Shown here one piece after another: positions 31,435 to 49,967 of a stretch of DNA of 64,000 nucleotides (the first letter of the stretch is position 1; each line of letters begins with the position of its first letter). This stretch comes from Oceanidesulfovibrio indonesiensis. GTDB lineage: Bacteria; Desulfobacterota; Desulfovibrionia; Desulfovibrionales; Desulfovibrionaceae. The stretch spans positions 124,001 to 188,000 of the forward strand of contig NZ_QMIE01000005.1 in NCBI RefSeq assembly GCF_007625075.1. The letters run 5' to 3'. The notes below the pieces were generated by a model. It saw only the letters and a program-made list of their open reading frames with translations, was not told the origin of the DNA and did no database searches. Both the position numbers and the translations under genes were made by a program.

Positions 31435-33186
31435 TCAGGTGGACGCCATCTTCATGATCGCATCGGCATAGTTCTTTTGCACATCCCACATGAATGTTTC
31501 GTCTATCTTGCCGCGCCATGTTTCCACCTCGGTAAAGCGCTTGGGAATCTTCACTGCGTGCGGGTCGAAGCCGGTGGCGATTTTGAGTTTCCAGCGCAGC
31601 TGCTGGACGTTGGCCGAGGCCTGGGTGAGGTTGTCGGCCATGTCCGTGAGCTCCACGGCGGCGAGCGCCTCCTGCAACGCGTCGTGCGTGTACACGGAAC
31701 GCGCGAACAGGCAGGAGACCATGGAACACAACTCCATACGGCCCTGTTCGTCTTCCACCAGGAACTTCACCGCGGCGTCGGTATCCTGCTCCTTGCGCTT
31801 CTGATCGTATGAGTAAGCGCCGGTGTCCAGGTGCGAGTGGCGGAACGAGGTTGCCTGGGAGGCAAAGTAGACTTCGCCGGTTGCGTAGCCTGCCATCTCC
31901 TGGCCGAGCACGCAGGCGAAGTCTCCGCCGCCGTATTTTTCCGCCGCCACAAGCGAGCCTTGCGCCAGGGTCTTGTAGAAGTCGTTGGACGCGAGGCCGA
32001 GGTGTCGGATCGCCTGCGCGTAACCCTTCACGTCGCCGAACCTGAGCGGAACGAGGGTTTCCTTTTCGGAAATGAGACCAGTATCCAGGGCCTCGGTGGC
32101 CCAGGCCAGGGCCACGCCTGCGCTCATCACATCCAGACCGACCTTCTCCGTCTCCTCCAGCAGCACGAGCACGTTGGAGGCTGCGTCCAGCCCGAGCATG
32201 GAGCCCATGGCGAAGATGGGCTCGTAGTCGTAGCTGACCTGGCGGTAGAGGAACTCGTGGTCCTTGGCGAACTGCTGGCGCAACAGGCCGATGTGCACGC
32301 AGCCCACGGGGCAGCCGGCGCATGCGGTCTGTCGCAGCAGGAGTTCCTCGGCAAAGGTCTCGCCGGATATCCTGTCCACGGCCGGGTCGCTGGTGGCCTG
32401 GAGGTTGCGCCATGGCAGCGATTTCAGCTCGTTGAGCGGGATGAGGTTCTGCGGCGTGCCCAGGTCGTGGTACTTGCGCATCATGTCCGTGGCGGTAACC
32501 TTCTGGAAGAAGTCCTTGTATATCTTGGCGTACGCCTTGCCGCCGGGCATCTGGAAGTCCGCGTCGCCCTCCATGGCAACGGCCTTCAGATTCTTGAGGC
32601 CCATAATCGCGCCGGCTCCGAGACGTCCGAAGTGGCGGTAGGTGTCCACGTTGATGCAGGCGTAGCTCGAACCTTTTTCCCCGGCCGGCCCGATACGGAT
32701 GATGGAGCGGTGGCCGCGGGAATCGGAACTGCGGGTGAGGCTGCGCAGCAGCTTGCCCGTGGAGAAGACGTCCTTGCCCCGCAGGTAGTGGACGTCCTTG
32801 ATCTGCATGGACCGCGAGCCGGCCTGTAGCACGGACAGGGTTGCAGCGCGGCCGGTGATCATAAGCGCGTGGTAGCCGGCAAAGCGCATGGCCAGAGCCA
32901 TACGGCCGCCGGCGTGGCTCTCAGCGTATTGCTCGTGGTAGGGCGATTTGAAGGCGCAGACCACCTTGCTCATGAGCGGGTAGTAGCCGGTGAGCGGGCC
33001 GATTGCGAAAATCAGGGGTTGGTCCGGGTGGTGCGCCGGCTCCTGTGGCAGGCCGTATTCGTCGTACAGCGCTGCGGCCAGGCCGGAGCCGCCGAGGGCA
33101 TCCACGGGATTGCCGAACTCCAGGACCCGGGACTTGCGTGCCGTGAGATCCACATGGAGGACGCGGAAATGTTCTTGAGTCCACAT
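31435..33186 (-). CDS. aldehyde ferredoxin oxidoreductase family protein
   Basis: This 583-residue tungsten- or molybdenum-pterin enzyme oxidises aldehydes to acids with ferredoxin as acceptor. The N-terminal domain begins LHVDLTARKSRVLEFG and carries SKVVCAFKSPYHEQYAESHAG-type pterin-binding sequence. The [4Fe-4S] motif CAGCPVGC lies near residue 285, with a further cysteine in MVSCLFARSVYT near the end. GGAGGAG precedes the ATG. It is the last gene of a pyk-ferredoxin-AOR operon, one base after the ferredoxin stop. The aldehyde substrate cannot be read from sequence. Confidence 0.92.
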   Translation of the reverse strand: MWTQEHFRVLHVDLTARKSRVLEFGNPVDALGGSGLAAALYDEYGLPQEPAHHPDQPLIFAIGPLTGYYPLMSKVVCAFKSPYHEQYAESHAGGRMALAMRFAGYHALMITGRAATLSVLQAGSRSMQIKDVHYLRGKDVFSTGKLLRSLTRSSDSRGHRSIIRIGPAGEKGSSYACINVDTYRHFGRLGAGAIMGLKNLKAVAMEGDADFQMPGGKAYAKIYKDFFQKVTATDMMRKYHDLGTPQNLIPLNELKSLPWRNLQATSDPAVDRISGETFAEELLLRQTACAGCPVGCVHIGLLRQQFAKDHEFLYRQVSYDYEPIFAMGSMLGLDAASNVLVLLEETEKVGLDVMSAGVALAWATEALDTGLISEKETLVPLRFGDVKGYAQAIRHLGLASNDFYKTLAQGSLVAAEKYGGGDFACVLGQEMAGYATGEVYFASQATSFRHSHLDTGAYSYDQKRKEQDTDAAVKFLVEDEQGRMELCSMVSCLFARSVYTHDALQEALAAVELTDMADNLTQASANVQQLRWKLKIATGFDPHAVKIPKRFTEVETWRGKIDETFMWDVQKNYADAIMKMAST

Positions 33187-33187
33187 G

Positions 33188-33643
33188 CTATTGCTCCTCC
33201 ATATGGCCGAAGGGGGCGCATTCCGGGGCCAGGGCCGCTTCCTTGTCCGGTTCGTCCACCAGCTCCAGACAGCCTTGCGGGCAGAAAGGCACGCAGCGGC
33301 CGCAGTGGATGCACAGATACGGCAGACCTTCGCCGAGATAGATCGCGTCCACCGGACAGGCCTCGGCGCAGGCTCCGCAGCGGATGCACAGGGAATGCTT
33401 GACCTTCACGCCGCCGCCTTCACGCTGTGTGAGCGCGTCCGTGGGGCAGGCCAGGGCGCAGGGCGCCGGGTTGCAGGCCACGCAGAGCTTTGCCTCGAAC
33501 CCGGTGGTCATGCCGCCGGAGGAGTGTATGCGTATCCCGGCCATGGACCAGGAGAATTTCTTGTGGACCTGCCGTGCGCAGGCCAGCGAGCAGGAATGGC
33601 ATCCAATGCATCGCTCCATGCGGTTGGCGAGCAGTACTTTCAT
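33188..33643 (-). CDS. four-cluster ferredoxin-type electron transfer protein
   Basis: This 151-residue protein carries 16 cysteines in four [4Fe-4S] binding groups: Cys12/15/18/22, Cys54/57/62/66, Cys86/89/92/96 and Cys111/114/117/121. The layout resembles the HycB/DmsB-like ferredoxin subunits that pair with molybdo- and tungsto-enzymes. It lacks a signal peptide, so it acts in the cytoplasm. It lies between pyruvate kinase (11-base gap) and the aldehyde ferredoxin oxidoreductase (1-base gap), so it is most likely the dedicated electron acceptor or subunit of that enzyme. A longer upstream reading through pyk in the same frame is not a real start. Confidence 0.92.
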   Translation of the reverse strand: MKVLLANRMERCIGCHSCSLACARQVHKKFSWSMAGIRIHSSGGMTTGFEAKLCVACNPAPCALACPTDALTQREGGGVKVKHSLCIRCGACAEACPVDAIYLGEGLPYLCIHCGRCVPFCPQGCLELVDEPDKEAALAPECAPFGHMEEQ

Positions 33644-33654
33644 AAAAACGATCC

Positions 33655-35085
33655 TTACTTCGTATAGATTTTGATTTCGTTGGTGGATGTGGACTTCTGG
33701 CCCGGCGTGGGCTGGCCCGAGGTGATGATGATCTTGTCGCCCGGGCGGAAGTCCGTGCTTGCCTGGATGAAATCCTCCACGCGTTCCACGTGGTCGCGGC
33801 CGTTGCCCGGAATGTGCACCGGTCGGATGCCCCAGAAATAGTTGAGGTATCGCGCGACTGTCTGATCCGGGGTAACCGCGTAGATCATGTGCGCGGGGCG
33901 CCGGCTGGAGATGAGCCGCGCCGTGGTGCCAAGCTGAGAGTGCGAGGCGATGGCCCGTGCGCCGGAATTCTGGGCGATGAGCGCTGCCGAGTAGGCCAGA
34001 TACTTGGCCGGGGACGACTCCTCCGCCGGGAAGTAGGGCTGCTTGAGCCGTTCGCGGAAATATTCCTCGGCGTGCTTGGCGACCTCGTCGATGAACTTGA
34101 CCGCGGCGACCGGGTGTTCGCCGGCCGCGGTTTCCTCGGAAAGCATCACGCAGTCCGCGCCGTCCAGAATGGCATTGGCAACGTCCGTAGCCTCGGCGCG
34201 GGTGGGTATGGGGTTGCGCACCATGGAGAGCAGCATCTGTGTGGCCACGATGGAGGCCTTCTGGGCGTGGCGCGCGGCGCGGATGATTCGTTTCTGGATG
34301 ACCGGAACTTCGCTCAGGGGGCATTCCAGGCCGAGGTCGCCGCGGGCGACCATCACAGCGTCGGCCAGATGCAGGATGTCGCTCAGGGTGTCCACGGCGT
34401 TGCGGCGTTCCAGCTTGGCCACCAGTGGCACGGCCTTGCCGTGGCGCTTGAGTTCGCGAAGAGCGTCTTCGATATCCTCCGGGCCCTGCACGAAGCTGAT
34501 GGCCAGCGCATCGATCCCGGCGTCGACGCCTTCTTTGAGGTCTATGCGGTCCTTGTCCGTGAGCGCGGGCAGCCTGTGCAGCTTGCCCGGAAAGGCAATG
34601 CCTTTGCGCGAGGTCAACGGCCCACCGGCCAGGGCGCGAAGTTCATAGAGCTTGTTGACCTTGAGGACGCGGACGACCTCGTATTGCAGGAGACCGTCGG
34701 AAAGGGACACCTGCATGCCGGGTTCGAGGTCCTCCAGCAGCTCGGGCACGTCCAGTGGGATGAAAACGCCGTCGCCGGACTCGGAGCGCATCTCCGGCAA
34801 TCCGAGGAAGGAGTGCTCGTCCTGATGGATTGTGAGCGGAGAGTTTTCGATCTCGCCGATGCGTGTCTTGGGGCCGCAGAGGTCACCCATGATGGTCAGC
34901 GGATGGTCGAACTCCTGCTCCACCTCGCGGATGGACCTGATGATCGGTTCGAACGATTTTGCGTCGCCATGGGAAAAATTCAGCCGGAAAACCCGCACGC
35001 CGTGCGTGGCCATGGCCTTGATTGTTTCCTTGTCTTTGGACGCGGGTCCGATGGTTGCGACGATTTTTGTGCGCATGTCGAGCAT
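33655..35085 (-). CDS. pyk: pyruvate kinase
   Basis: This 476-residue glycolytic enzyme transfers phosphate from PEP to ADP. The start MRTKIVATIGPASKDKETI, the PEP/metal site VMVARGDLGLECPL, and SEETAAGEHPVAAVKF are all in place, followed by the C-terminal allosteric domain. GGAGA lies upstream of the ATG. It heads an operon with a polyferredoxin and an aldehyde ferredoxin oxidoreductase and is divergent from the secreted dikinase-like gene at 35392. The link to an aldehyde oxidoreductase suggests coupling of lower glycolysis with ferredoxin reduction; that is inference. Confidence 0.95.
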   Translation of the reverse strand: MLDMRTKIVATIGPASKDKETIKAMATHGVRVFRLNFSHGDAKSFEPIIRSIREVEQEFDHPLTIMGDLCGPKTRIGEIENSPLTIHQDEHSFLGLPEMRSESGDGVFIPLDVPELLEDLEPGMQVSLSDGLLQYEVVRVLKVNKLYELRALAGGPLTSRKGIAFPGKLHRLPALTDKDRIDLKEGVDAGIDALAISFVQGPEDIEDALRELKRHGKAVPLVAKLERRNAVDTLSDILHLADAVMVARGDLGLECPLSEVPVIQKRIIRAARHAQKASIVATQMLLSMVRNPIPTRAEATDVANAILDGADCVMLSEETAAGEHPVAAVKFIDEVAKHAEEYFRERLKQPYFPAEESSPAKYLAYSAALIAQNSGARAIASHSQLGTTARLISSRRPAHMIYAVTPDQTVARYLNYFWGIRPVHIPGNGRDHVERVEDFIQASTDFRPGDKIIITSGQPTPGQKSTSTNEIKIYTK

Positions 35086-35391: not shown

Positions 35392-38300
35392 ATGACGTTG
35401 TATCGGGATTTTGTTGCATGGCGCCGCCCAGTCGTCCTGGGAATGCTGTTTTCATTCTGTTGCTTCGCGTTGTCCGTTCCCGCTGCTGCGGACGCCGCCG
35501 TGTCTGCGGAGTTCGATCCGGAGCGGGCCGCCTCGCTGCGGGCGCATTGGAGCCGGGTCCAGTCGGCCTTCAAGGGTCCCTACACCATAAACTACTGCAC
35601 CTGCGCCAACGGCGAGCGCGCGCCGGTGGCGGACGAGAACCTCAACGTGCGCAGCGATCCGTGCGGCGAACTTTTCGGTGCGAGGGAGCTCTTCTGCTCC
35701 GCTTACCGCACGAACCTTGCCCGGGACATGGGCGAACAATACGGCCTGTGGGTGGCGAACATCTTTGCCAACGAGACCCATACCTGGGACGAGCGAAAGC
35801 CTTATGACGAGATCGCCAAGGGGTTCATCCTCGAACGATATTACATGGACCATTTTCCGGAAAAGCCGCTGACCGTGTTCAAGTCCACGGGCGGGATCTC
35901 CGGCGCTGAATTCGAGGCCCGATACGCTCCCCGGTTTTTCGCCAGATACTACGCCACCGAGGAGTGGGAGGACTTCACCCACTACCTGGTGCAGTACGAG
36001 TTGCAGCGCCACTTCTTCGTGGGCGAAGACGAGGGGGTAATTCATCGGGCGCGCAACATATCCTCGGCCATCCGCAACAGTTACGAGCCGTTCAAGCCGC
36101 TGCGGGATCTTATCCACAACCAGATGTCGCCTGGTCTCGTACCCATGATCGAGGAGTTCCAGAGACGCCACCCCCAGGCCGGACAGCGCGAGCGATTCGA
36201 GCAACTCAAGGCTACGCTCCGGAGCCTTACTTCCGTGAACGTGGAGTCTTTGTCCCGCTTCGCGAGTTCCGCGCCTTCCCAGGCCTTGCGCGACAAGCTG
36301 GCGGAGGTTCTGGCCGCACAGCCGGGCATCCAGCGCGCCGAGGCCTTGGGGGCACTCGTTGCGGCGTGCCGCTCGGCTGTGGCAGCCGGAAGCCTTACGC
36401 CGGAGGAAGCGGTTCGTGTGGTGGACTTGGCCGTGGCGGCAAATGGCGTGCTCACTGCCGAATCCCTGGCCCTGACCGAAAAGAAAACCCCGCGGACGGC
36501 GCGCGAAACCCTGGCTCTCATGCAGGCCCTGGCCGACGGCGGCTACGGCGCCGGGCTTATCTCCGCCCGTGAGCATGACGAGGCCCATCGCATCTTCGGA
36601 CAGCTTCTGGCCCGGGAATCCATGCGGACCGGCGATATGACACAGGAGCTGGAGCGCGCAATGCGCGTTGTGGAGTGGGCGCAGTCCTCCATCCGCGGCG
36701 TGTTCGGCGATGTGTGGGGTGCATGGACCGTTGTCTTCCCCGAGGTCTCGCGCTTCCCGGACGACGTCATCCGTTCCTCACCCCTGTTCGTATACGCGCG
36801 GTTGGGCAACGCGCTGGCCGACGCGCTTCATGCGGAATTAGAGATGAACCACGAGGTGCTGGGCCTTCGCATGAACCAGGGCGTGCGGCCGCTGAATCCT
36901 GGCCTGGCGTTCGGTCCGCTTGTGTATTTCGATGATGGGAAGAACTACACCCGCGACAACATCGTCGCTCTGGAGTCCACCAGCGCTGAACTGGACCCCG
37001 TTGCCGGCATCGTCACGCGGGACGAGGGCAATGCCGTCTCCCATGTGCAGCTTCTGGCCCGCGCGCTGGGCGTGCCCAACGCGGTCTTTTTATCGCAGGC
37101 ATGGGAGCGTCTCCAGGGGCTCGAAGGCTTCCCCATGTTCTACGCCGTCACACCCATGGGACGGGTGGTGCTCAAGCTCGAAGCCGAGATGGGGCCGGAA
37201 GACAGGGCCATCCTCGCCGAGTACCGCAAGAACATGAAACGCAACGGCGAAGGCGACGGCCGGCGCCCAGGCTCCGTGTTGCGCCTCGATGCTGAAAGGC
37301 TGGACCTGTCCGTGGACAAACCTATGCCGCTGGGCGAGGTGCGGAGAAAGGATTCCGGCGTGTTCTGCGGCCCCAAGGCAGCGTTTCTCGGCGAGTTGCG
37401 GCATTATTTTCCTGACAACGTGGCCGCCGCCGTGGTCCTGCCCTTTGGGGTGTATGCAGATCATTTCGACAGGGCCGTTGTGGCGCAGCCGGGAAACTCC
37501 ACGATCCAGGCGCCGGTCGGCATACCGCTCAAGGCGTACGTCCATGGCGTGTATGACAGATACTTCGGTGAAATGCTGACCGATTCGAAACTTTCGGCGG
37601 ACGACCTCGCGCAGTGGATCAAGCCGCGGCTCGAAGTGATCCGCCATTCCATCGAGGCAATCACTCTGGACTCAGAACTGACGGCGACTCTCCGGAAAAC
37701 GCTGGAGGGCGAAGGGCTCATCGACAAAACCGGCAACTCGCCCACCGGCATTTTCGTGCGTTCGGACACGAACGCGGAAGACCTGCCGGACTTCAACGGC
37801 GCGGGCCTCAACCTCACGCTCTTCAACCTGCGCAGCTTCGAGGATGTACTCGAAGGCATCAAGGAAGTCTGGGCCTCGCCTTTCACCTACCGCTCCTTTT
37901 CCTGGAGGCAGACGGTGATCAGCAACCCGGAGCATATCTACCCGTCGTTGCTGCTTATGGAGTCGGTGCCTTCGGAGAAGTCCGGCGTGCTTGTCACAGC
38001 GGATGTGGTCAGCGGCGACATGGATGGCCTCACCGTGGCCACGGCAGAAGGCGTGGGCGGCACCGTGGACGGCTCCCCAGCCGAGACTCTGTTCGTGCAA
38101 AACGGCGAGGTGCGGCTCCTCAGCCAGTTCAAGTCTCCCTTCCGGCGGCTGCTGTCCAGTGACGGCGGCGCGTACATGACGCGCTCAACAGGCAGGGAAT
38201 GGGTGCTTAGCGGCGACGAGTTGGACCAGATCGTGGATGCGGCACGCACCATAGAGCGGGAGTTTGAGCCGGCGATGTCGTCCGACGGCCGACGCCTTCC

Positions 38301-38472
38301 CTGGGATATCGAGTTCGGATTCGTGGACGGCACGCTTTCCCTGTTCCAGGCCAGACCGTTCGTGGGCAACTCGGATATCCGAAACCTGCCAGCCCTGGCG
38401 GCGCTGGACGACGATCTCGCTAAACGGGAAAACGAATCCTTTTCTCTCAAGGAGACCATCACATGGCAGTAA
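35392..38472 (+). CDS. secreted PEP-synthase/glucan-water-dikinase-like phosphotransferase
   Basis: This protein has 1026 residues from the ATG at 35392, the start that gives a signal peptide (Arg11-Arg12, hydrophobic VVLGMLFSFCCFALSVP, cleavage near ADA-AVS). Residues about 40-480 are an unrecognised domain with several cysteines (NYCTCANGE). Residues about 500-610 are a phosphohistidine swivel domain with His551 in GNAVSHVQLLARALGVP. Residues about 655-1015 are an ATP-grasp domain of the PPDK_N type: Lys662 in GPKAAFLGEL, Arg790 in FVRSDTNAEDLPDFNGAGL, VWASPFTYRSFSWRQ, and IEFGFVDGTLSLFQARPF. The PEP/pyruvate TIM barrel is absent, and the His domain precedes the ATP domain, as in glucan water dikinases. 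It should act outside the cytoplasm, which is unusual for an ATP enzyme. The next gene overlaps its end by ten bases. Confidence 0.85.
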   Translation: MTLYRDFVAWRRPVVLGMLFSFCCFALSVPAAADAAVSAEFDPERAASLRAHWSRVQSAFKGPYTINYCTCANGERAPVADENLNVRSDPCGELFGARELFCSAYRTNLARDMGEQYGLWVANIFANETHTWDERKPYDEIAKGFILERYYMDHFPEKPLTVFKSTGGISGAEFEARYAPRFFARYYATEEWEDFTHYLVQYELQRHFFVGEDEGVIHRARNISSAIRNSYEPFKPLRDLIHNQMSPGLVPMIEEFQRRHPQAGQRERFEQLKATLRSLTSVNVESLSRFASSAPSQALRDKLAEVLAAQPGIQRAEALGALVAACRSAVAAGSLTPEEAVRVVDLAVAANGVLTAESLALTEKKTPRTARETLALMQALADGGYGAGLISAREHDEAHRIFGQLLARESMRTGDMTQELERAMRVVEWAQSSIRGVFGDVWGAWTVVFPEVSRFPDDVIRSSPLFVYARLGNALADALHAELEMNHEVLGLRMNQGVRPLNPGLAFGPLVYFDDGKNYTRDNIVALESTSAELDPVAGIVTRDEGNAVSHVQLLARALGVPNAVFLSQAWERLQGLEGFPMFYAVTPMGRVVLKLEAEMGPEDRAILAEYRKNMKRNGEGDGRRPGSVLRLDAERLDLSVDKPMPLGEVRRKDSGVFCGPKAAFLGELRHYFPDNVAAAVVLPFGVYADHFDRAVVAQPGNSTIQAPVGIPLKAYVHGVYDRYFGEMLTDSKLSADDLAQWIKPRLEVIRHSIEAITLDSELTATLRKTLEGEGLIDKTGNSPTGIFVRSDTNAEDLPDFNGAGLNLTLFNLRSFEDVLEGIKEVWASPFTYRSFSWRQTVISNPEHIYPSLLLMESVPSEKSGVLVTADVVSGDMDGLTVATAEGVGGTVDGSPAETLFVQNGEVRLLSQFKSPFRRLLSSDGGAYMTRSTGREWVLSGDELDQIVDAARTIEREFEPAMSSDGRRLPWDIEFGFVDGTLSLFQARPFVGNSDIRNLPALAALDDDLAKRENESFSLKETITWQ

Positions 38473-40193
38473 GAGTGATCTCACAGAAGATTTTTTATCC
38501 CGGAAGAACAGCGCAACAGAAATGCCTCCGGCAGTCGGAACAGCAATGTTCTTCAGGCATCCCCGTACCGGGTTCAAGGAATGGTATTTCATTGTTTTTC
38601 AAGAGTATCATCGCGTGCCTGGCGGTTCTGCTCGGCCTGGCAGCTCCGTCCGCCAATGCCGCCCCAGCCGGGGTCTGGGAGCCCACGGGCAAGCCGGGCA
38701 TCTGGTTCGTCTGGTACGCGCCGTCTTTCTATACAGGCTATGCCCCGCGCAGCCAGGAGGCGGACAAGGTTCACATCCATATGGGGCGCGGCAACCAGGT
38801 GCGCATCACCGTGGTGATGACGGAAGAACTCATCGACAACTACCCGCAGGATCTCATGCTGCGCGAGGACACGATCACCGAGCTCGTGGAAAAGGACGTC
38901 ATCGACCTGTACATGAACATGAGCTGGGAGCGGTTCCAGGAAACCCTGGCCGACCATGGCGTGCGGGAGTTGGCAGAATCCAAGGCAAGCATGGACCCGG
39001 CCGAGTACCGCCGCAAGAGCCTGGAGCTCATGCGCGCGCTCAACCCGGACCAGGTCTGGCACATCCAGATGAACGCCGGCGGCCTGTGTTCCGGCTGGCT
39101 GGAGCGGCACCAGGGCGCGCAACCGGCGAATGCCTCGGACAAGCTCGCCCTGGTCAACGACATCCTGCCCACACGGCTGTGGCACATGGAGATGACTCAG
39201 GAGCTGGAGCAGACGCTGAGCCAGGCGCTGGCCGCCCAGGACGCCGAAGGCGTGATGCCTCTGCTGAAGGCCGCGGCCGGCGACCTCTACCCGGTGGAGG
39301 ACGGCCGTATCGATGTCTGGGAATATACAACCATCTACCCGGCGGGCACGCATGACAGCTTCACCACCGTGGACGGCGAGCGCATCCCCAACTTCCCGGT
39401 CACGGGCGTGTGGGATCTGACCTCGCGCGACTACGGCAAGGGCCAGCTCGGCATGGTGGACTATCTTTCCACCAACCCGGGATACGGCTTCATCACCATG
39501 CTGCCGTACCAGCACGCGGGCAGCTACTACTACAACGCCTTCCACAACGACGGCATACGCATCCCCGTGAGCAAGAGCTTCATGCCCCAGGAATGGAAAA
39601 ACGTGCAGACCGAACGCGAGGGCGAGCACGCCGGCCAGTTCTGGGCCTGCAGCCGCGGCCCTGTCTCCCACGGGTGCACGCGGGTTCCTTCGGACCTCAT
39701 GGGCGAGTTCCGCCACATCCTGCCCTCGGATGCGGAAAAGGCGCGCGGGTTGCCCACTTTCCGAAACGATTCAGCTTGCTTCGACGTATACGACATCGAC
39801 GGCGACGGAACGCCCGAGGTCATGGGCATCAAGTATTATCTTGCCTACCGCGCGGTTAAGCCGCGCGATCCCGTGGAAATCCGCGTGAAGAACACGCGTG
39901 ATGCCTATTACCCATGGCTGTATGGAAAAAGCGCTTTCGTTTGGAACGAAGACGGCTCCGTGACCTTCCCCAAGGCCCGCACGTGCCAGTTCGTGGGTCG
40001 CAAGGCCGTAGCCGGAAAGGTGTACGAAAACGTGAGGCTTTTTGAGCCGGACTACCACGGCGGGGACAAGCTCCAGTTCTACACCCTCAACCCGGTGAAC
40101 TTCGAGACCGATCCGGGCTTCACGTTCAATCGCGAACTCAGGAACGTGGGCTGGGGTTACAAAGCGGACAGGAAGAAGCTTTTCCTCGAATAG
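38463..40193 (+). CDS. secreted L,D-transpeptidase-like protein A
   Basis: This protein has 576 residues. The ATG at 38463 has AAGGAG upstream inside the preceding gene; it gives an unusually long N-region before the hydrophobic segment at 47-66 (cleavage near SANA-AP). A TTG at 38592 is an alternative start with a normal signal peptide. Residues 70-300 form a domain shared with the next gene (FYTGYAPRSQEADKVHIHMG). Residues about 330-430 carry a YkuD-like catalytic pair: His in NAFHNDG and Cys405 in SRGPVSHGCTRVPSD, matching the SHGC-x-R signature. DIDGDGTPEVMG is a calcium-loop-like motif. Likely periplasmic; peptidoglycan is the usual substrate of YkuD enzymes, but the surrounding fold is divergent. 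Confidence 0.82.
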   Translation: MAVRVISQKIFYPGRTAQQKCLRQSEQQCSSGIPVPGSRNGISLFFKSIIACLAVLLGLAAPSANAAPAGVWEPTGKPGIWFVWYAPSFYTGYAPRSQEADKVHIHMGRGNQVRITVVMTEELIDNYPQDLMLREDTITELVEKDVIDLYMNMSWERFQETLADHGVRELAESKASMDPAEYRRKSLELMRALNPDQVWHIQMNAGGLCSGWLERHQGAQPANASDKLALVNDILPTRLWHMEMTQELEQTLSQALAAQDAEGVMPLLKAAAGDLYPVEDGRIDVWEYTTIYPAGTHDSFTTVDGERIPNFPVTGVWDLTSRDYGKGQLGMVDYLSTNPGYGFITMLPYQHAGSYYYNAFHNDGIRIPVSKSFMPQEWKNVQTEREGEHAGQFWACSRGPVSHGCTRVPSDLMGEFRHILPSDAEKARGLPTFRNDSACFDVYDIDGDGTPEVMGIKYYLAYRAVKPRDPVEIRVKNTRDAYYPWLYGKSAFVWNEDGSVTFPKARTCQFVGRKAVAGKVYENVRLFEPDYHGGDKLQFYTLNPVNFETDPGFTFNRELRNVGWGYKADRKKLFLE

Positions 40194-40298
40194 TCGTTGA
40201 CAAACGCGCACTCGCGCGGCGAAAAGCTCGGCAATCAGGATCCGTTCCGACAGATTTTTCCCTGGGGTGCGGAGTCAGCAAACCTGTGTCCCAGGGAA

Positions 40299-40344
40299 TT
40301 ATTACTGGGAGCAGAATGTTTGAACATCCTGCTCTGAGTAATAT
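40299..40344. repeat. long palindromic hairpin, REP-like family member
   Basis: ATTACTGGGAGCAGAATGTT (40301-40320) pairs with the complementary arm at 40323-40342 with only two mismatches around a 2-base loop. The same core words, ATTACT-GGGAGCA and TGCTC-AGTAAT, form the hairpins at 13957-14083. It lies between the two transpeptidase-like genes and might also attenuate transcription between them. Confidence 0.7.
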
Positions 40345-40428
40345 GAAACGGGCGGGTCTTGCCAAGCTGCTCTCCGGCTTTGGAGCGTCTTGAGCTTGAA
40401 AAGGTTTAGAATCTCTTGTTCATTTATC

Positions 40429-40437
40429 TGATACAAT
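40429..40437 (+). promoter_or_regulatory. candidate extended -10 promoter for protein B
   Basis: TGATACAAT (TG at 40429-40430, TACAAT at 40432-40437) matches an extended -10 element in an A/T-rich stretch, 170 bases upstream of the next start codon. No good -35 hexamer is present at the right distance. Confidence 0.4.
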
Positions 40438-40606
40438 TAGGGATTGTTTCGGATCGAGGGTCTTGCCTCAAGGCGAAGATGCATTAACCTCAAAAACAGT
40501 GTTGCTGTAATTTCGGAGCGCGACGGTATGGCCTGCGCGCATCCGCTCATCCCGGTGGTTGGCTCCTGTCCATCCACCCCAGACGTTTTCATCCGAGGTG
40601 TACTTC

Positions 40607-42496
40607 ATGACGAAGACCATCCGTTCCGGTCGCTCTGTAGCCTTGCGCGTTGCCGTGTACTCCATTGCCGCAGCCGTGTTCCTCGCCGCCTTGTTCCAGC
40701 TGGACGACACGATCTCTGCCCAGCCGCTGGAGCACTACAAGGAGCAGGCGCAGGAAGCCGCAAGAAAAGCCTGGGAACTCGACCAGATCCGCCCCAAAGC
40801 CGGTGCGGCGGGCGTGGGAATCGAGCAGAAGCCCGCCATGGTGGATCTCACCAGGCCAGGCATGCTCAAAGTGGAATCCTCCATTTGGGAAGAGACCCGA
40901 AGCGAGATTCCCGGCATTTTTTTCTACAGGCTCGAGCCCATGTTCTACACGGGCTTCGCCCCGCGCATACAGGACCCCAGGATGGTTCACACCTATCTCG
41001 GCCGCGGCAACCAGCTGCGCGTCACGGCTGTGCTCAGCGAGCAGGCGCTCGGCGAATACCTCCAGGATATCGCACTGCGCTATCTCACGGTCCAGGCGCT
41101 CATTGACGAGGGAAAGCTGGAGCTGACCCAGAACACCCAGTGGGAGCGGTTCAAGACGATCATTGATGCCGAGGGCATCATGGCGCTGGCCGCCGGCTCG
41201 GAGTTCATGGACGACGAGGCCTACCGCGCCATGGCGCTGACCAAGATGGCCGCGCTGAATCCCGGCCGCGTTTTTCACATCAAGATCGACATGCGCGAGC
41301 GGCTCCGCGATTGGGCGGAGGCTGAACTGGCCGGCGCCGGGGCGAGTGACCCCCGCGCAGGCCTCGCCGTGGTCAATGGCATGCTGCCCACTCGCTTCAA
41401 ACTGACCAACATGACCGCGGCCCTCGCCGAAAAGCTGGACGCCGCGGCCGCCGCCTGGAGCGCCTATGCGCAGGCAGGGACCGATGCGGGGTTCGAGGCG
41501 TTTTTCGCCGCGGCGAGCGATCTGTTCCATGAAGCCGCAGGAGGCGTGTACTCGATCAATGAGCACGGCTACATGGATCATTGGGAGTTCACCGCCATCT
41601 ATCCCGTGGGCACGCTGAACCAGTACGTGCAGCACGAAGGCAAGCAGATACCGCTGTACCCCTGCCCGGGCGTGCGGCAGGTCTGCTACCACCAGCGCAC
41701 CAAAGTGGCCGACCATATCTCCGAGACCGGCAGCTACGGTTTCACACCCTGGATTCCCTACATGCACGTGGGGTCCAGGCTGCACAACTCCTTCCACTCC
41801 CTGTGGTTCCGCATAGACGCCCGCAGCTATTCCGAAATTCCGGACGAGTGGCGCGCAGTGACCGAAGGCAAGCGCGAGGACACGCCGTATCCGTACCTCT
41901 GGCTGGTCAGCCGCGGTCCCATGTCCCAGGGATGCACCCATGTGAATGCAGGGTTCCTGAACGAACTCAGGCAGATATTCCCGTCCACCGAGGAGAATCT
42001 CTCGCAGGTCATCACCTTCCGCAACAAGTACCAGCACTACGATGTCTTCGACATAGACGGCAACGGCGAGCCCGAAGTCATGGGCGTGGCCTACTTCCAT
42101 GCCTACGCGCTCTCCAACAAGAAGCCGGCCAAACGCCGCGCCCCGGCCGAGCGCAAGGCTTTCTACGAGTGGCTGTACGGCTCCGGCTACCGCTACGACG
42201 AAAACGACCGCGTGATCTTCGAGGAGGCCGTCACCTCCGCCTTTGTGGGTAAGAAAGCCGAGGAAGGCCGTGTGTATCGCGATATTCCATTGTACGAGGC
42301 CGAATACTTCGGCGAATCCATCCAGTTCTACAAGACGCAGCCTGTGGACTTCATCCGCGAACTGCGCCGGGTGGCTGTGGGCTACGACCTGGACGAGCGC
42401 ATCCTGGGCCTCAGCCAGCCTGTGGAGCCGCAGAAACTGCGCGCAGAAGCGTGTGTCAGATCCCCTGTGTCCGAGCCCCGGACCACGGTGGAGTAG
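40607..42496 (+). CDS. secreted L,D-transpeptidase-like protein B
   Basis: This protein has 629 residues from the ATG at 40607 (GAGGTG upstream). An N-terminal signal peptide or anchor (VALRVAVYSIAAAVFLAALF) is present. It is a paralogue of protein A over its full length: FYTGFAPRIQDPRMVHTYLG matches A's corresponding segment. The catalytic-type motif is altered: Cys443 in SRGPMSQGCTHVNAG, so the usual His before GC is Gln and the Arg after is His, while the upstream HNSFHS histidines remain. DIDGNGEPEVMG repeats the calcium-loop-like motif. The altered motif may mean a different reaction or loss of activity. A strong terminator follows at 42527. Confidence 0.8.
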   Translation: MTKTIRSGRSVALRVAVYSIAAAVFLAALFQLDDTISAQPLEHYKEQAQEAARKAWELDQIRPKAGAAGVGIEQKPAMVDLTRPGMLKVESSIWEETRSEIPGIFFYRLEPMFYTGFAPRIQDPRMVHTYLGRGNQLRVTAVLSEQALGEYLQDIALRYLTVQALIDEGKLELTQNTQWERFKTIIDAEGIMALAAGSEFMDDEAYRAMALTKMAALNPGRVFHIKIDMRERLRDWAEAELAGAGASDPRAGLAVVNGMLPTRFKLTNMTAALAEKLDAAAAAWSAYAQAGTDAGFEAFFAAASDLFHEAAGGVYSINEHGYMDHWEFTAIYPVGTLNQYVQHEGKQIPLYPCPGVRQVCYHQRTKVADHISETGSYGFTPWIPYMHVGSRLHNSFHSLWFRIDARSYSEIPDEWRAVTEGKREDTPYPYLWLVSRGPMSQGCTHVNAGFLNELRQIFPSTEENLSQVITFRNKYQHYDVFDIDGNGEPEVMGVAYFHAYALSNKKPAKRRAPAERKAFYEWLYGSGYRYDENDRVIFEEAVTSAFVGKKAEEGRVYRDIPLYEAEYFGESIQFYKTQPVDFIRELRRVAVGYDLDERILGLSQPVEPQKLRAEACVRSPVSEPRTTVE

Positions 42497-42526
42497 CAGA
42501 AGCGCCACATGCAATGAATTGCAAGG

Positions 42527-42559
42527 AAGGCGGCTTTCACACCGAGAGCCGCCTTTTTT
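42527..42559 (+). terminator. intrinsic terminator
   Basis: AAGGCGGCT (42527-42535) and AGCCGCCTT (42547-42555) form a perfect stem followed by a T-run. It ends the transcript of protein B, so the transporter gene downstream needs its own promoter. Confidence 0.9.
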
Positions 42560-42696
42560 CATGACGATCACCCGGCATATCTGGCATTATTTCAAGATAG
42601 TGTGCTACACGGATTTGAAAGACGGCCAGATAGGAGTCCGAATGAGCGGTCCGGACTGCTTTAAACGTCTCCATCTCCAGCCGTAGCGAGAGGTTC

Positions 42697-44031
42697 ATGG
42701 GGTTTCTCAAGCGATGTCTGCTCTACGCCGAGGGGGCGAAGCCGTTCCTGTGTCGGCCCGTTGTGCGTTCGTGTTTCCTTTTTTCTGATTTTTTCCTTAT
42801 CATAACAGCACTTTATCTGCTAAAGCCCACCAGCCGCTCCTTCTTCATCGAGAACCTGGGGGCGGAAATGCTGCCCTACGTATGGATCGGCACCGCCCTG
42901 ACCATGGGCACCTTCATCGGTTACTACAACCGGTTGATCGTGCGGCGCGCGCGGCTCCATGTGGTGCTGGGCTCCTGCATGTTTTTCATTATCCTGCTGC
43001 TTTTTTTCAGCGCGGCTTTGGCAGGCATGGTGGATATGCCCGCACTGGTGAAGGCCAGCGCAGCCGGCTACTATATCTTTGTGGACATCGTGGGCGTCAT
43101 TCTGGTGGAGCAGTTCTGGTCCCTGTCCAACGCCGTGCACACGGCGGAGGAGGGCAAGCACTACTACGGTTTCATCGGCACTGGCGGTCTTGTGGGCGGG
43201 GTCGCCGGCGGCGGCATCTCGGCGTTTCTGCTCCAGAAGGCGCATCTGGACAGCGCGGACATTCTGCTGGTGGCGGCCGGTGTGCTGCTGCTCATATTCG
43301 CCCTCACGCTGTTTCTCGGCTGGCTCGGCGTGTACGACGAGGTGCGGGCCAAAGACGGCCAACGGGGCAAAGAGGCGGCGGCTGGGTGGCGGGCGCTGTT
43401 CAAGAACCGCTACATCGGGCTCATCGCCTTGCTTCTGCTGCTGGCGCAGCTCGCCTCGCCGCTGGTGGACTACCAGTTCCTTTCGATCGTGGAGCAGGCT
43501 TACACGGACCTGGACAAACGCACCGCATTCCTTTCGCTGTTCTTCAGCATACTCGGCGGGGTTGCCATAGCCATCAACCTGGCCGTCACGCCGCTTGTGC
43601 ACCGCTACCTGGGGGTCATCGCCGGATTGTTGGTGCAGCCTTTGCTCATGGGCATTGCGTCCTTCGGCTTCTTCCTCCAGCCCGTAGCGCTCATGGGAGC
43701 CATCTCCAAGGTGTCGGACCGCGGTCTCAGCTACTCCATCAATCGCGCATCCAAAGAGATTCTCTACGTGCCGGTGGACCCGGTGCTCATGTATCAGGCC
43801 AAGGCGTGGATCGACATGTTCGGCTACCGGCTGTTCAAGGTCCTGGGCTCCATGGTCATCCTGCTGCTCACGCAGTGGCTGCCGTTCAAGGTGCAGCTGC
43901 CGCACCTGAGCTTCCTCATCATGGGAATCTGCGGTATCTGGATCGCCATCATCTGGGCCATCCGGCCGGAATACTATGCGTTGGCACGGACCAATGCTTC
44001 CGGCGAAGAAAAATCCGGAGGGCTTTCGTAG
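42697..44031 (+). CDS. nucleotide (ATP/ADP) translocase-family transporter
   Basis: This 444-residue membrane protein has about 11-12 transmembrane segments. The segment LKPTSRSFFIENLGAEMLPY near the start and SKEILYVPVDPVLMYQAKAW with IDMFGYRLFKVLGS near residues 345-380 match the conserved blocks of the Npt1/Npt2 nucleotide transporter (AAA antiporter) family. Members in intracellular bacteria and plastids exchange ATP for ADP; those of free-living bacteria are mostly uncharacterised. Its position beside a secreted ATP-grasp enzyme makes nucleotide export to the periplasm an attractive but unproven role. Confidence 0.82.
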   Translation: MGFLKRCLLYAEGAKPFLCRPVVRSCFLFSDFFLIITALYLLKPTSRSFFIENLGAEMLPYVWIGTALTMGTFIGYYNRLIVRRARLHVVLGSCMFFIILLLFFSAALAGMVDMPALVKASAAGYYIFVDIVGVILVEQFWSLSNAVHTAEEGKHYYGFIGTGGLVGGVAGGGISAFLLQKAHLDSADILLVAAGVLLLIFALTLFLGWLGVYDEVRAKDGQRGKEAAAGWRALFKNRYIGLIALLLLLAQLASPLVDYQFLSIVEQAYTDLDKRTAFLSLFFSILGGVAIAINLAVTPLVHRYLGVIAGLLVQPLLMGIASFGFFLQPVALMGAISKVSDRGLSYSINRASKEILYVPVDPVLMYQAKAWIDMFGYRLFKVLGSMVILLLTQWLPFKVQLPHLSFLIMGICGIWIAIIWAIRPEYYALARTNASGEEKSGGLS

Positions 44032-45439: not shown

Positions 45440-45473
45440 TGTGCGACCGCTTCCGGAGTCGGCAGGTGCGTGC

Positions 45474-47000
45474 ATGAACGAGCCGTCCGATAAGCTCTGC
45501 TCCCTTCGCGGCCTTGCCGTGGCTGCGCCCCGTTCCGGTTCCGGCAAGACGCTCTTCACACTGGGTCTGCTTGCCTCTTTCACCCGCCGGAGCCACACGG
45601 TGCAGGCCTACAAGGCTGGACCGGATTTCATCGACCCCGGCCACCACACGGCGCTTACAGGGCGACCCAGCCAGAACCTGGACGGGTGGATGCTCGGCCG
45701 GCGCTCCTGCCAGGACATCTTTGCCCGCTCGGCGCGACGTCCCATACAGGACCGCGTGCCGGATATCCTGCTTCTGGAAGGCGTCATGGGCCTGTTCGAC
45801 GGCGCCTCCGGACGCACCGAAACAGGCTCCACGGCCGAGCTCGCCAAGTGGCTGGGGCTGCCCGTGCTCATCGTGCTCGACGCCCGCTCCATGGCCCGCA
45901 CCGCTGCGGCCATCGCGCACGGCCTGGCCACATTCGACCCCGGCCTGCCCGTGGCCGGCGTGGTGCTCAACCGCGTGAGCTCGGCCACTCATCGCGAGCT
46001 TCTCGAAGAATCTTTTGAGGCGTTGGACCTGCCGTTGCTGGGCTGCCTGATGAACGATGCCGAGATGGACGTGCCGTCGCGCCATCTGGGGCTCGTCACG
46101 GCGGAGGACCGGCCGACGGACGCGACGTTCGCGGACCGCCTTGCCGATTGGGTCGAGTCCGGCGTGGACGTGGAAAAACTGCTCCATGTACTGCCCGACG
46201 TATCCAGAAATGTGGACATCTGCGCAGCCGCGAACGGCTCCGGCATAACGGCCGAAGACGCGGACAATGAAGGGGCGTGCCGGCCTGTCGATTTGTCTAT
46301 GAATTTGGATGCGCAGCCAGCTGAGATGGTGGTGCGCATCGCAGTGGCGCGAGACGCCGCCTTCTCATTTTACTATGACGAAAACCTGCGTTTGCTGGAA
46401 GCTGCAGGGGCAGAGCTTGCGTTCTTCTCGCCCCTCGCGGACAGCGCTTTGCCCAAGGACATCGGCGGTGTCTATCTCGGCGGGGGGTATCCGGAACTCC
46501 ACGCCGACGCGCTCGCAAATAATGTGAAGCTGCGCGAGGAGATTCGCAAGCGCTCCCTGCGCGGCCTGCCTGTGTACGCCGAATGCGGCGGCTACATGTA
46601 TCTGATGCGTTCCCTCACGGACGGTGATGGACGCCGGCTGCTCATGGCCGGGGTGTTTCCCTGGGCCGCGGTAATGGACTCGCGCCGGCGCGGGCTGGGG
46701 TACCGCGAAGTTACAACCACGGCGGATACCCTGCTCGGTCCTGCAGGAACCGTCCTGCGCGGCCACGAGTTCCATTATTCCTTCACGTCCGAGTTTCCGG
46801 ACGACGCTGCTTTGCTGGACGCCGGGGTCCAACCGGTCTACGCTGTGACCGACAGACGGGGGGAGCTTCTCACAGTCACCGGATACAGCGCCGGCGGCGT
46901 GCTCGCCTCTTATGTACACCTGCATTTCGGCAGCAATCCTCAGGCGGCGCGATGCTTTGTGGAACGCTGCCGAACGTACTGGAACAAAGAGAATGTCTGA
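45474..47000 (+). CDS. cbiA: cobyrinic acid a,c-diamide synthase
   Basis: This 508-residue enzyme amidates cobyrinate at the a and c side chains using glutamine and ATP. The N-terminal P-loop domain shows AAPRSGSGKTLFTLGLL and YKAGPDFIDPGHH; the C-terminal glutamine amidotransferase-like domain has YLGGGYPELHADAL and the nucleophile Cys in VYAECGGYMYLM. I chose the ATG at 45474; a GTG at 45441 would add 11 residues without a family match. It overlaps cbiC by eight bases. Confidence 0.94.
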   Translation: MNEPSDKLCSLRGLAVAAPRSGSGKTLFTLGLLASFTRRSHTVQAYKAGPDFIDPGHHTALTGRPSQNLDGWMLGRRSCQDIFARSARRPIQDRVPDILLLEGVMGLFDGASGRTETGSTAELAKWLGLPVLIVLDARSMARTAAAIAHGLATFDPGLPVAGVVLNRVSSATHRELLEESFEALDLPLLGCLMNDAEMDVPSRHLGLVTAEDRPTDATFADRLADWVESGVDVEKLLHVLPDVSRNVDICAAANGSGITAEDADNEGACRPVDLSMNLDAQPAEMVVRIAVARDAAFSFYYDENLRLLEAAGAELAFFSPLADSALPKDIGGVYLGGGYPELHADALANNVKLREEIRKRSLRGLPVYAECGGYMYLMRSLTDGDGRRLLMAGVFPWAAVMDSRRRGLGYREVTTTADTLLGPAGTVLRGHEFHYSFTSEFPDDAALLDAGVQPVYAVTDRRGELLTVTGYSAGGVLASYVHLHFGSNPQAARCFVERCRTYWNKENV

Positions 47001-47676
47001 CTCAGTAAAGATCAAGGACCTTCGCACGCCGGAGGCCATCGAGTGCGGCTCCATGGCGATCATCGACGCCGAAGTGCCGGAGCCGCGACCCTATGCCGGT
47101 GACGAGTGGATCGTGGTCCGGCGCATGATCCACGCCACCGCTGATTTCGAACTGCTCGATCTGGTGCGCTTCCATCCGGACGCCGTTACTGCGGCCCTGA
47201 ATGCGCTGGCGCATGGCGGCCTCGTACTCACGGATACGGAAATGGCCCGCGCCGGGCTGCCTGTGCGGCGGTTCGAGCCCTTCGGCTCGCGCGTGGAATG
47301 TCTGATGAACGATCCCGAGGTCATCCGCCGCGCCGGAGAGCAGGGCTCCACCCGCGCCACTGTGGCCGTGGACGTGGCGGCCGAACGGTACGGGGGGCTG
47401 GCGGGCGCGATCCTGCTCGTGGGTAATGCGCCCACGGCGCTGCTGCGCATTCTGGAGCGTTGCCGGGACGGGTCCATTGCACCGGCCCTGGTGCTCGGCA
47501 TGCCAGTAGGCTTCGTGAACGCCGCTGAGTCCAAGGCGCTGCTCATGGAGCAGTCGTTCGTACCCTACATCGCCGTCTCCGGCCGCAAGGGCGGCTCAGC
47601 CCTGGCGGCCGCAGCGCTCAACGCCCTGGCGCAGCTGGCCTTGGACAGACGATCGGCCGACCAGCACAGGAGTTGA
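46993..47676 (+). CDS. cbiC: cobalt-precorrin-8 methylmutase
   Basis: This 227-residue enzyme moves the C-11 methyl group to C-12, making cobyrinate. The catalytic histidine is in VRRMIHATADFE, and ALVLGMPVGFVNAAESKALL and YIAVSGRKGGSALAAAALNA are family signatures. The ATG overlaps the end of cbiA (46993-47000), so translation is coupled. The FUSC-family gene follows immediately. Confidence 0.94.
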   Translation: MSDSVKIKDLRTPEAIECGSMAIIDAEVPEPRPYAGDEWIVVRRMIHATADFELLDLVRFHPDAVTAALNALAHGGLVLTDTEMARAGLPVRRFEPFGSRVECLMNDPEVIRRAGEQGSTRATVAVDVAAERYGGLAGAILLVGNAPTALLRILERCRDGSIAPALVLGMPVGFVNAAESKALLMEQSFVPYIAVSGRKGGSALAAAALNALAQLALDRRSADQHRS

Positions 47677-47678
47677 GC

Positions 47679-48794
47679 ATGGGCCTCGCCATGCGTCTGG
47701 AACCAGCCCAGGTCCGCCACGCCCTGCGCGTGGGCATTGCCGCGGTCGTCACCCTTGTCATCGCCGAGTTCTTCAATCTGGAGCAGGGATACTGGGCCGT
47801 CATCTCCGCCATCATCGTGATGCATGCGACCATGGGCCGCTCGCTCACCGCCGGCTGGGCCCGCATCCTGGGCACGGCCGTGGGGGCTACGCTGAGCGCC
47901 ATAGCTGTGCTGCTCCTGGGCGATACGCCGCTTTCACTGGGTCTGGCCATCTTCCTCACGCTGCTGGTGTGCGGATACCTGACCTATCTCCACGAGGCGT
48001 TCCGCATGGCCGGCGTCACCGCCGGCATAGTCATCCTCGTTGGCGCCGGCGAGGCCAACATTATCCACACGGCGTTCGTCCGTTTTCTCGAAATCTCCCT
48101 GGGCGTGACCGTGGCCATGGTCGTGTCCATGATCTTCCTGCCTTCGCGGGCCACTGCCGGTTTGCTCAAGGGCATCGCCGACAATCTGGATACCGAGGCA
48201 GTTCTATACGGTACGCTCGTGAGCGGGTGCCTCGACAACAGATACGACGAGGATCGTGTATCCGAACTCAAAAGTCGCATCCACGCTTCGCAGAACGCCA
48301 ACGCAACGCTCCTGAACGAAGCGCGCAAGGAACCGACAGGGCTTTCCAAACGCAAAATCGTGGTGTCCAATTTTGTAGACTGGGAGCTGCGGTTGTTCGA
48401 GGATCTGTTGTCCCTGGACCATGCCGCGCGGGAGCTTGCGAGCGAGGCGCTGCACAAGCGCATGCGCAAGGCCTTGAGCTCGCTCGGCAAGGCTACGGAG
48501 CAGGCGCTGTCCGCCATGGCGGCGTCCCTGCGGGACGAACGCGCAAGACCCCGCGCCGACGGACCGGAGGCGGATGCTCTGCGCGTGGCGCTGCATGAGG
48601 TGGAACACGGTCTGACGGAGCTAAGGCGGCGCAAGGAGTCGGCATCCTATTCGCTCACCGAGGTCTCGCACTTCTTCTCCCTGGTCTTTGCCATGCGCGA
48701 AGCCGCCTCGGAATGTTTCCGCGGATTCGAACTTCTGGGCCAACTCGAAATGGCCAAGGGCGAGCGCCGCGTCATGCCGGCGGTGGGCGCATGA
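47679..48794 (+). CDS. FUSC-family membrane protein inside the cobalamin operon
   Basis: This protein has 371 residues from the ATG at 47679 (GGAG seven bases upstream; a TTG at 47673 is also in frame). The N-terminal 150 residues hold five to six transmembrane segments with the FUSC pattern (LEQGYWAVISAIIVMHATMG then RILGTAVGATLSA), and the rest is a long cytoplasmic helical region. FUSC proteins include aromatic-acid exporters such as AaeB. It starts two bases after the cbiC stop and overlaps cbiD by four bases, so it is a true operon member. A role in transport of a pathway compound is inference. Confidence 0.85.
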   Translation: MGLAMRLEPAQVRHALRVGIAAVVTLVIAEFFNLEQGYWAVISAIIVMHATMGRSLTAGWARILGTAVGATLSAIAVLLLGDTPLSLGLAIFLTLLVCGYLTYLHEAFRMAGVTAGIVILVGAGEANIIHTAFVRFLEISLGVTVAMVVSMIFLPSRATAGLLKGIADNLDTEAVLYGTLVSGCLDNRYDEDRVSELKSRIHASQNANATLLNEARKEPTGLSKRKIVVSNFVDWELRLFEDLLSLDHAARELASEALHKRMRKALSSLGKATEQALSAMAASLRDERARPRADGPEADALRVALHEVEHGLTELRRRKESASYSLTEVSHFFSLVFAMREAASECFRGFELLGQLEMAKGERRVMPAVGA

Positions 48795-49957: not shown

Positions 49958-49967
49958 GGTACGAAGC

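Follow-up and report, generated by a model that had tools for sequence, protein, structure and literature searches.

A predicted exported dikinase linked to a nucleotide-translocase-family transporter: a candidate extracytoplasmic ATP-dependent enzyme system in Oceanidesulfovibrio indonesiensis

How could an enzyme that cleaves ATP work in the periplasm, where ATP is normally absent? The question is raised by a locus of Oceanidesulfovibrio indonesiensis lying within a window of 64,000 nucleotides (the whole stretch of DNA that was analysed), in which a preliminary description had reported four consecutive plus-strand genes. All four open reading frames (ORFs) are indeed present in that order, at 35392-38472 (gene 1, 1026 residues), 38463-40193 (gene 2, 576 residues), 40607-42496 (gene 3, 629 residues), and 42697-44031 (gene 4, 444 residues). 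They encode a dikinase-like protein with a predicted signal peptide, two paralogous proteins of a secreted type with a conserved Cys, and a membrane transporter of the NTT/TLC family. We think it rather probable, with ample room for doubt, that an enzyme system working on ATP outside the cytoplasm is encoded here, formed by an exported dikinase, an NTT for nucleotide supply or return, and secreted enzymes acting on the same substrate. Within this proposal, it is the connection of the carrier-family transporter with the predicted secreted ATP enzyme that comparative data strongly support.

The product of gene 1 (35392-38472, plus strand) comprises a signal peptide, a helical N-terminal domain, a phosphohistidine domain and a C-terminal ATP-grasp domain, as predicted from Pfam, Foldseek and an AlphaFold2 model with a predicted local distance difference test score (pLDDT) of 89.9. 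Pfam PPDK_N matches residues 735-995 (E 4e-27), and the whole ATP-grasp domain is placed at residues ~650-991 (37339-38364, plus strand). The PEP-utilisers mobile domain is matched at residues 531-571 (E 2e-4) with 21.5 bits, slightly under the curated cut-off of 23.1. The predicted phosphoryl-carrier His551 (motif SHVQLLAR, codon at 37042-37044, plus strand) is identical in 54/54 aligned dikinase homologues, as are Lys662, Arg790, Asp972, Glu974, Gln986, and Arg988 of the ATP-grasp domain; E974, Q986, and R988 correspond in the alignment to E297, Q309, and R311 of Listeria rifampin phosphotransferase (Rph; 5fbs). Because the catalytic residues are intact in all 54 homologues, the enzyme should be active.

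Gene 1 shares with Rph and the phosphoenolpyruvate (PEP) synthase/pyruvate phosphate dikinase (PPDK) superfamily a PPDK_N ATP-grasp domain with conserved ATP residues, together with a phosphohistidine domain, and its ATP domain superposes on that of rifampin phosphotransferase 5hv6 with a Foldseek probability of 1.00 and a TM-score of 0.84 by target length. It differs from this superfamily in its predicted export, in its 490 N-terminal residues, which are helical and have no match to anything known, and in the PEP/pyruvate-binding barrel (PEP-utilisers_C), which found no match in the Pfam scan. The NCBIfam PEP synthase models score far under their cut-offs, and RIF_Ptrans_rph gives 66 bits against a cut-off of 999. 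The domain order is also unlike that of Rph (ATP-grasp, RIF-binding, His): in gene 1 the His domain comes first, the ATP-grasp lies at the C-terminal end, and no RIF domain was found. Plant glucan water dikinase (GWD) has a His domain followed by a C-terminal ATP-grasp, and gene 1 resembles GWD and phosphoglucan water dikinase in this order as well as in motif style (SHV, RSD.N.EDL..F.GAGL). However, it is bacterial and predicted to be exported, and has no matched starch-binding domain; the Pfam scan gave no carbohydrate-binding domain of any kind.

The signal peptide is predicted at approximately residues 1-36 (35392-35499, plus strand) from a hydrophobic N-terminus that recurs in homologues of many phyla. 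Such a segment is present in 83% of the raw dikinase ORFs (n=78) versus 31% of soluble-like unlabelled neighbour ORFs, and several of the dikinase ORFs that lack it are frames extended upstream of the likely start. A classic Sec signal is seen, for example, in MIRLLIICLLLFNFPHFARGQ (locus L069). Moreover, Cys71 and Cys91 are invariant in all 54 dikinases, which fits a disulphide, as expected in an oxidising compartment. An extracytoplasmic location of the dikinase is a prediction and not a proof. The initial view of gene 1 as a signal-peptide-bearing phosphohistidine/ATP-grasp protein is upheld by the PPDK_N match, the PEP-utilisers match just below its cut-off, and the signal-peptide-like N-terminus.

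Gene 4 (42697-44031, plus strand) had been described as a nucleotide-translocase-family transporter, and the family searches agree. Its product (P0004) matches PF03219 (TLC) with 67.5 bits, over a cut-off of 21, and phmmer relates it to the solved ADP/ATP carriers 9j3n (E 7e-10) and 9j3j (E 4e-8); its score against NCBIfam TIGR00769 is 70.8, under the cut-off of 387. It is therefore homologous to the NTT/TLC carriers (Chlamydia Npt, AtNTT1, bacterial NTT, and NTT-HEAT), but it is found in a free-living bacterium beside a predicted exported ATP enzyme and has diverged at some residues of the characterised carriers. The essential charged residues of AtNTT1 are K155, E245, E385, and K527, a numbering that chain numbering +84 fits for the last three. 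At these positions gene 4 has D130 (E245), D258 (E385), and K381 (K527), and a Ser at the apparent K155 position, in a region that lies outside reliable alignment. Of 36 NTTs linked to a dikinase, 33 have D or E at the position of E385; that of E245 is occupied by D (20) or Ala (16) and that of K527 by Lys (20) or Thr (16), and K369 and E354 are invariant.

Do these two genes belong together beyond this one genome? A scan of a genome collection gave at least 570 homologous stretches, the best 80 of which were fetched; the 82 analysed loci, ranked by similarity to gene 1, are a sample and no census. Unbiased clustering of all ORFs at most 9 kilobases (kb) from the dikinase retrieved NTT in 54 loci, two families that we call SH and SH2 in 52 and 50, and the family of genes 2 and 3 (hereafter the Cys family) in 23, the next most frequent neighbour reaching 5/82. 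Where at least 5 kb of flank is available on each side, an NTT lies within 9 kb in 33 of the 39 loci. SH and SH2 match Pfam Beta-lactamase2 (PF13354), and the SxxK, SxN, and KSG motifs of class A beta-lactamase-like serine hydrolases are kept in at least 90% of 50 SH and 43 SH2 sequences; they are not in the window, which has the Cys family instead. SH and the Cys family are mutually exclusive (together in 0/79 loci), and the switch between them is a single change on the dikinase tree. Like the dikinase, the SH, SH2, and Cys-family proteins have signal-peptide-like N-termini.

The neighbourhood of dikinase, NTT and secreted hydrolase-like protein occurs in Thermodesulfobacteriota, Myxococcota, Pseudomonadota, Bacteroidota, Gemmatimonadota, and Acidobacteriota, and the dikinase gene itself in four other families of the window's phylum (395 genomes, searched with the N-terminal domain). 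In the sister species G001 (locus L005) all four genes recur with their order unchanged, at identities of 71%, 73%, 77%, and 86% for genes 1 to 4. This shared order, together with the recurrence of the neighbourhood across phyla, indicates that the four-gene set is beyond chance. Whether the neighbourhood extends beyond close relatives was the chief test put forward in the preliminary description, and recurrence in six phyla answers it; the joint system proposed there is supported in part, and is better framed as dikinase plus NTT plus one of two alternative secreted families.

Co-occurrence of dikinase and NTT among genomes was assessed in two genome samples, in both of which every dikinase-bearing genome has an NTT (5/5 and 5/5). 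In 198 Flavobacteriales genomes, the dikinase is present in five, an NTT-HEAT protein in exactly the same five, and neither in the rest (p about 4e-10, with genomes taken as independent and shared descent ignored); the two genes lie ~4 kb apart in four pairs and ~11 kb in the fifth. Weak partial matches in two genomes of this sample (G547 and G559) were treated as noise. In 195 genomes of one gammaproteobacterial order, an NTT is present in 40 overall and the dikinase in 5, all with an NTT (p about 3e-4, shared descent ignored), which is adjacent in three of them (G502, G717, and G803). These samples weigh more than a set of 32 genomes picked from dikinase loci, because that pick favoured loci with an NTT: PF03219 is present in 29/32 of these versus 0/14 controls, within about 10 kb of the dikinase in 25 of the 29 positive genomes. 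In four genomes the NTT lies away from the first dikinase; three of these (G514, G516, and G517) have an SH-type dikinase, which in G516 and G517 is a second one, and the G516 NTT is ~6 kb from it.

The origin of the NTT partners adds a further line of evidence. The gene 1 dikinase is 51-52% identical to its nearest relatives (loci L011, L015, and L016), whereas the NTT of the window shares only 27-29% identity with the NTTs of these same loci, against 58% with that of L087 and 57% with that of L080, both SH-type loci. NTTs are rare in the window's own order; one genome (G016) has a close NTT (55% identical) and no Cys family, with an SH-type dikinase ~17 kb away on the same contig. Bacteroidota dikinase loci, for their part, use NTT-HEAT fusions, which match the fusion class of Major et al. 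2017 (PMC5381601). Judged from sequence, dikinase loci have therefore acquired NTTs of distinct kinds on more than one occasion. Such repeated joining by different NTT types is hard to explain other than by a functional link.

What, then, would the secreted pair do? Genes 2 (38463-40193, plus strand, 576 residues, motif SRGPVSHGCT; AlphaFold2 pLDDT 87.1) and 3 (40607-42496, plus strand, 629 residues, motif SRGPMSQGCT) encode predicted secreted Cys-type hydrolase/transferase-like paralogues, 37-38% identical to each other; the motif of paralogue 2 is SHGC in the sister species. H361, S402, G404, and C405 are invariant in 32 family members, H403 is present in at least 90%, and 44 residues separate the His from the Cys. 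The family resembles YkuD L,D-transpeptidases in its secreted type, in an invariant Cys within SHGC, and in an invariant upstream His and Ser. However, we could not find any Pfam match (including YkuD PF03734, at E 0.1) or NCBIfam match for either gene, nor any match in PDB sequences for gene 2, the only one searched there. The best Foldseek matches of the Cys-protein model are Mycobacterium tuberculosis L,D-transpeptidases, at a level that is not significant (E 0.19, probability 0.23), and when profiles are compared, YkuD proteins align with the family at the SHGC motif with a probability of 8%. On these grounds strict YkuD membership was not adopted. The secreted YkuD-like pair of the preliminary description thus survives as regards paralogy and the S-H/Q-G-C motifs, while the YkuD label has the motif and a weak fold resemblance behind it; genes 2 and 3 are candidate Cys acyl-transfer enzymes.

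From these elements a working scheme can be drawn. The gene 4 NTT, located in the inner membrane, would exchange cytosolic ATP for spent nucleotide, thereby supplying ATP, returning the spent nucleotide, or both; ATP supply for the dikinase is its most likely role. The exported dikinase would phosphorylate itself on His551, cleaving ATP to AMP and phosphate, and one phosphate would be handed on to a periplasmic or cell-envelope acceptor, or would activate it. The Cys pair, or two beta-lactamase-fold serine enzymes in other bacteria, would process the same substrate, which is most likely part of the cell envelope, for instance peptidoglycan. A peptidoglycan-linked acceptor is our favoured guess, since both partner families resemble enzymes acting on peptidoglycan stem peptides, firmly for SH and SH2 as class A beta-lactamase relatives, and weakly for the Cys family. 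In its broadest form, on which we are evenly divided, the proposal is a dedicated extracytoplasmic ATP economy in free-living Gram-negatives, where an NTT sends ATP to the periplasm and the dikinase phosphorylates or ligates an envelope component, with one or other of two unrelated acyl-enzyme families acting alongside.

Several observations weigh against this scheme. The nucleotide cycle is not closed on paper, as dikinases make AMP and known NTTs exchange ATP for ADP. A 5'-nucleotidase-like gene, which fits AMP disposal outside the cytoplasm, lies between the Cys-family gene and the dikinase in only two loci (L011:6683-8413, with a lipoprotein-like N-terminus, and L015:7233-9008). The essential charged residues of AtNTT1 are partly lost in gene 4, and in the NTT-HEAT partners Ala stands in for E245 and Thr for K527. 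Six loci (L021, L053, L060, L064, L081, and L092) have no NTT nearby despite full flanks, though in the L064 genome one lies ~11 kb off the dikinase, and other apparent exceptions carry a second, SH-type dikinase. Conversely, 35/195 genomes of the gammaproteobacterial order have an NTT and no dikinase, which rules out that every bacterial NTT is paired with a dikinase. In the window, finally, an intrinsic-terminator-like hairpin with a T-run (42520-42561, plus strand; RNA fold -25.3 kcal/mol, z -6.4, 0/200 shuffles as good) sets gene 4 apart from genes 1-3. This rules out a single four-gene operon: the genes are consecutive, but they form more than one transcription unit.

The partial loss of charged residues, most marked in the NTT-HEAT partners, is also what would be expected if the NTT partner carried something other than a nucleotide, such as a product or fragment that the secreted enzymes set free, the dikinase living on ATP from dying neighbours or leakage. 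AmpG, which has the same major facilitator superfamily (MFS) fold as NTT, carries muropeptides, and for the NTT-family protein NTT4 of S. negevensis no nucleotide transport was seen (PMC5381601). We consider this unlikely, if the most serious of the alternatives: shared family with nucleotide carriers is the sole functional precedent for these partners, the E385 position stays acidic in 33/36 of them with K369 and E354 invariant, and a constitutive periplasmic enzyme fed by leaked ATP would need no conserved NTT. It is distinctly improbable that the secreted dikinase is instead a detoxifier, a periplasmic Rph relative that inactivates an antibiotic alongside beta-lactamase-like and transpeptidase-like enzymes. 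The closest solved fold of its ATP domain is indeed rifampin phosphotransferase, and SH and SH2 fall in Pfam Beta-lactamase2, but the domain order and the lack of a detected rifampin-binding domain speak against it, as does a distribution that is patchy but old, with a conserved NTT, unlike that of mobile resistance genes. Furthermore, no full-length dikinase homologue was found in 72,556 plasmids, nor was any Cys-family match, and a plasmid-borne system was rejected on this ground.

That same patchiness, the separate termination of gene 4, and the loci without an NTT could suggest that a regulator, or a mobile past in common, is all that the neighbours share, with no joint function. We give this even less credit, as the same few families alone recur around 82 loci in at least six phyla, different NTT subfamilies were recruited repeatedly, and presence and absence agree in independent genomes. 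Least credible of all would be a system running inwards, where the dikinase, in reverse and outside the cytoplasm, would produce ATP out of AMP and a phosphorylated polymer, for import by the NTT. Pyruvate phosphate dikinase is reversible, but water-dikinase reactions are strongly AMP-forming, gene 1 has no pyruvate/PEP barrel domain in the Pfam scan, and the hosts are not obligate parasites, even if NTTs are best known as ATP importers (PMC5381601). An NTT that supplies an exported dikinase remains our preferred reading.

The pattern is widespread, simple to test, and unexplained by any described system, and it probably reflects a widespread means of carrying out ATP-dependent chemistry beyond the cytoplasm that has apparently gone undescribed. 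Our survey of the open-access literature, which took in periplasmic kinases, secreted ATP-grasp enzymes, the gene context of NTTs, and water dikinases of bacteria, turned up no description of either a secreted dikinase or this gene set. NTT and NTT-HEAT proteins have been found in many free-living bacteria without a known role, in a study that makes no mention of a dikinase gene context (Major et al. 2017, PMC5381601). An extracytoplasmic ATP economy, if real, would give a function to part of these unexplained NTTs, and their role in free-living bacteria becomes a testable question, with cultured hosts open to genetics in Maribacter, Arenibacter, Flagellimonas, Guyparkeria, and Aestuariicella. 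The periplasm is taught as ATP-free; the pairing of a secreted ATP-cleaving enzyme with a carrier-family transporter would overturn this view for many bacteria, and points to ATP-driven cell-envelope chemistry of a new kind.

Some further observations concern the NTTs and the Cys family in other genomes. A tight divergent NTT/SH2 pair, which can sit at least 7 kb from the dikinase (L095:9625-12100, L044:277-2504, L047:2-2112, L048:919-3136), suggests that these two genes form a sub-module. Behind the Cys-family gene of three loci stands a further transporter-like gene (L011:15511-18774, L015:15158-18445, and L016:6251-9496); its product in L011 carries HEAT repeats together with a cyclic-nucleotide-binding domain, so that some loci hold two NTT-type proteins. 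A common gammaproteobacterial NTT subfamily (motif LRPIRDNMG; L124-L138, L141) has no conserved partners beyond clade synteny, as seen in 15 dikinase-less NTT loci and one extra NTT of a dikinase-bearing genome. A search of genome and viral contigs with the first four Cys-family members, which proved too narrow as seeds, gave no match, whereas the dikinase-based scan recovered the family.

As to the locus itself, the start of gene 2 overlaps the stop of gene 1 by 10 nucleotides, and 413 nucleotides separate genes 2 and 3. The promoter scan, which is uninformative for this organism, gave no sigma-70-like promoter. A 660-residue frame runs antisense to gene 3 (40589-42571, minus strand), with a similar one in the sister species, and is most likely a by-product of high GC content. 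Divergently upstream (31435-35085) are genes for an aldehyde ferredoxin oxidoreductase, a ferredoxin-like 4Fe-4S protein, and a pyruvate kinase, the first and last of which hold the same upstream place in the sister species. Downstream of the locus and outside the system, a cobalamin-biosynthesis-like gene run (CbiA-, CbiC-, CbiD-, and CbiE/T-like by reading) occupies 45441-51200.

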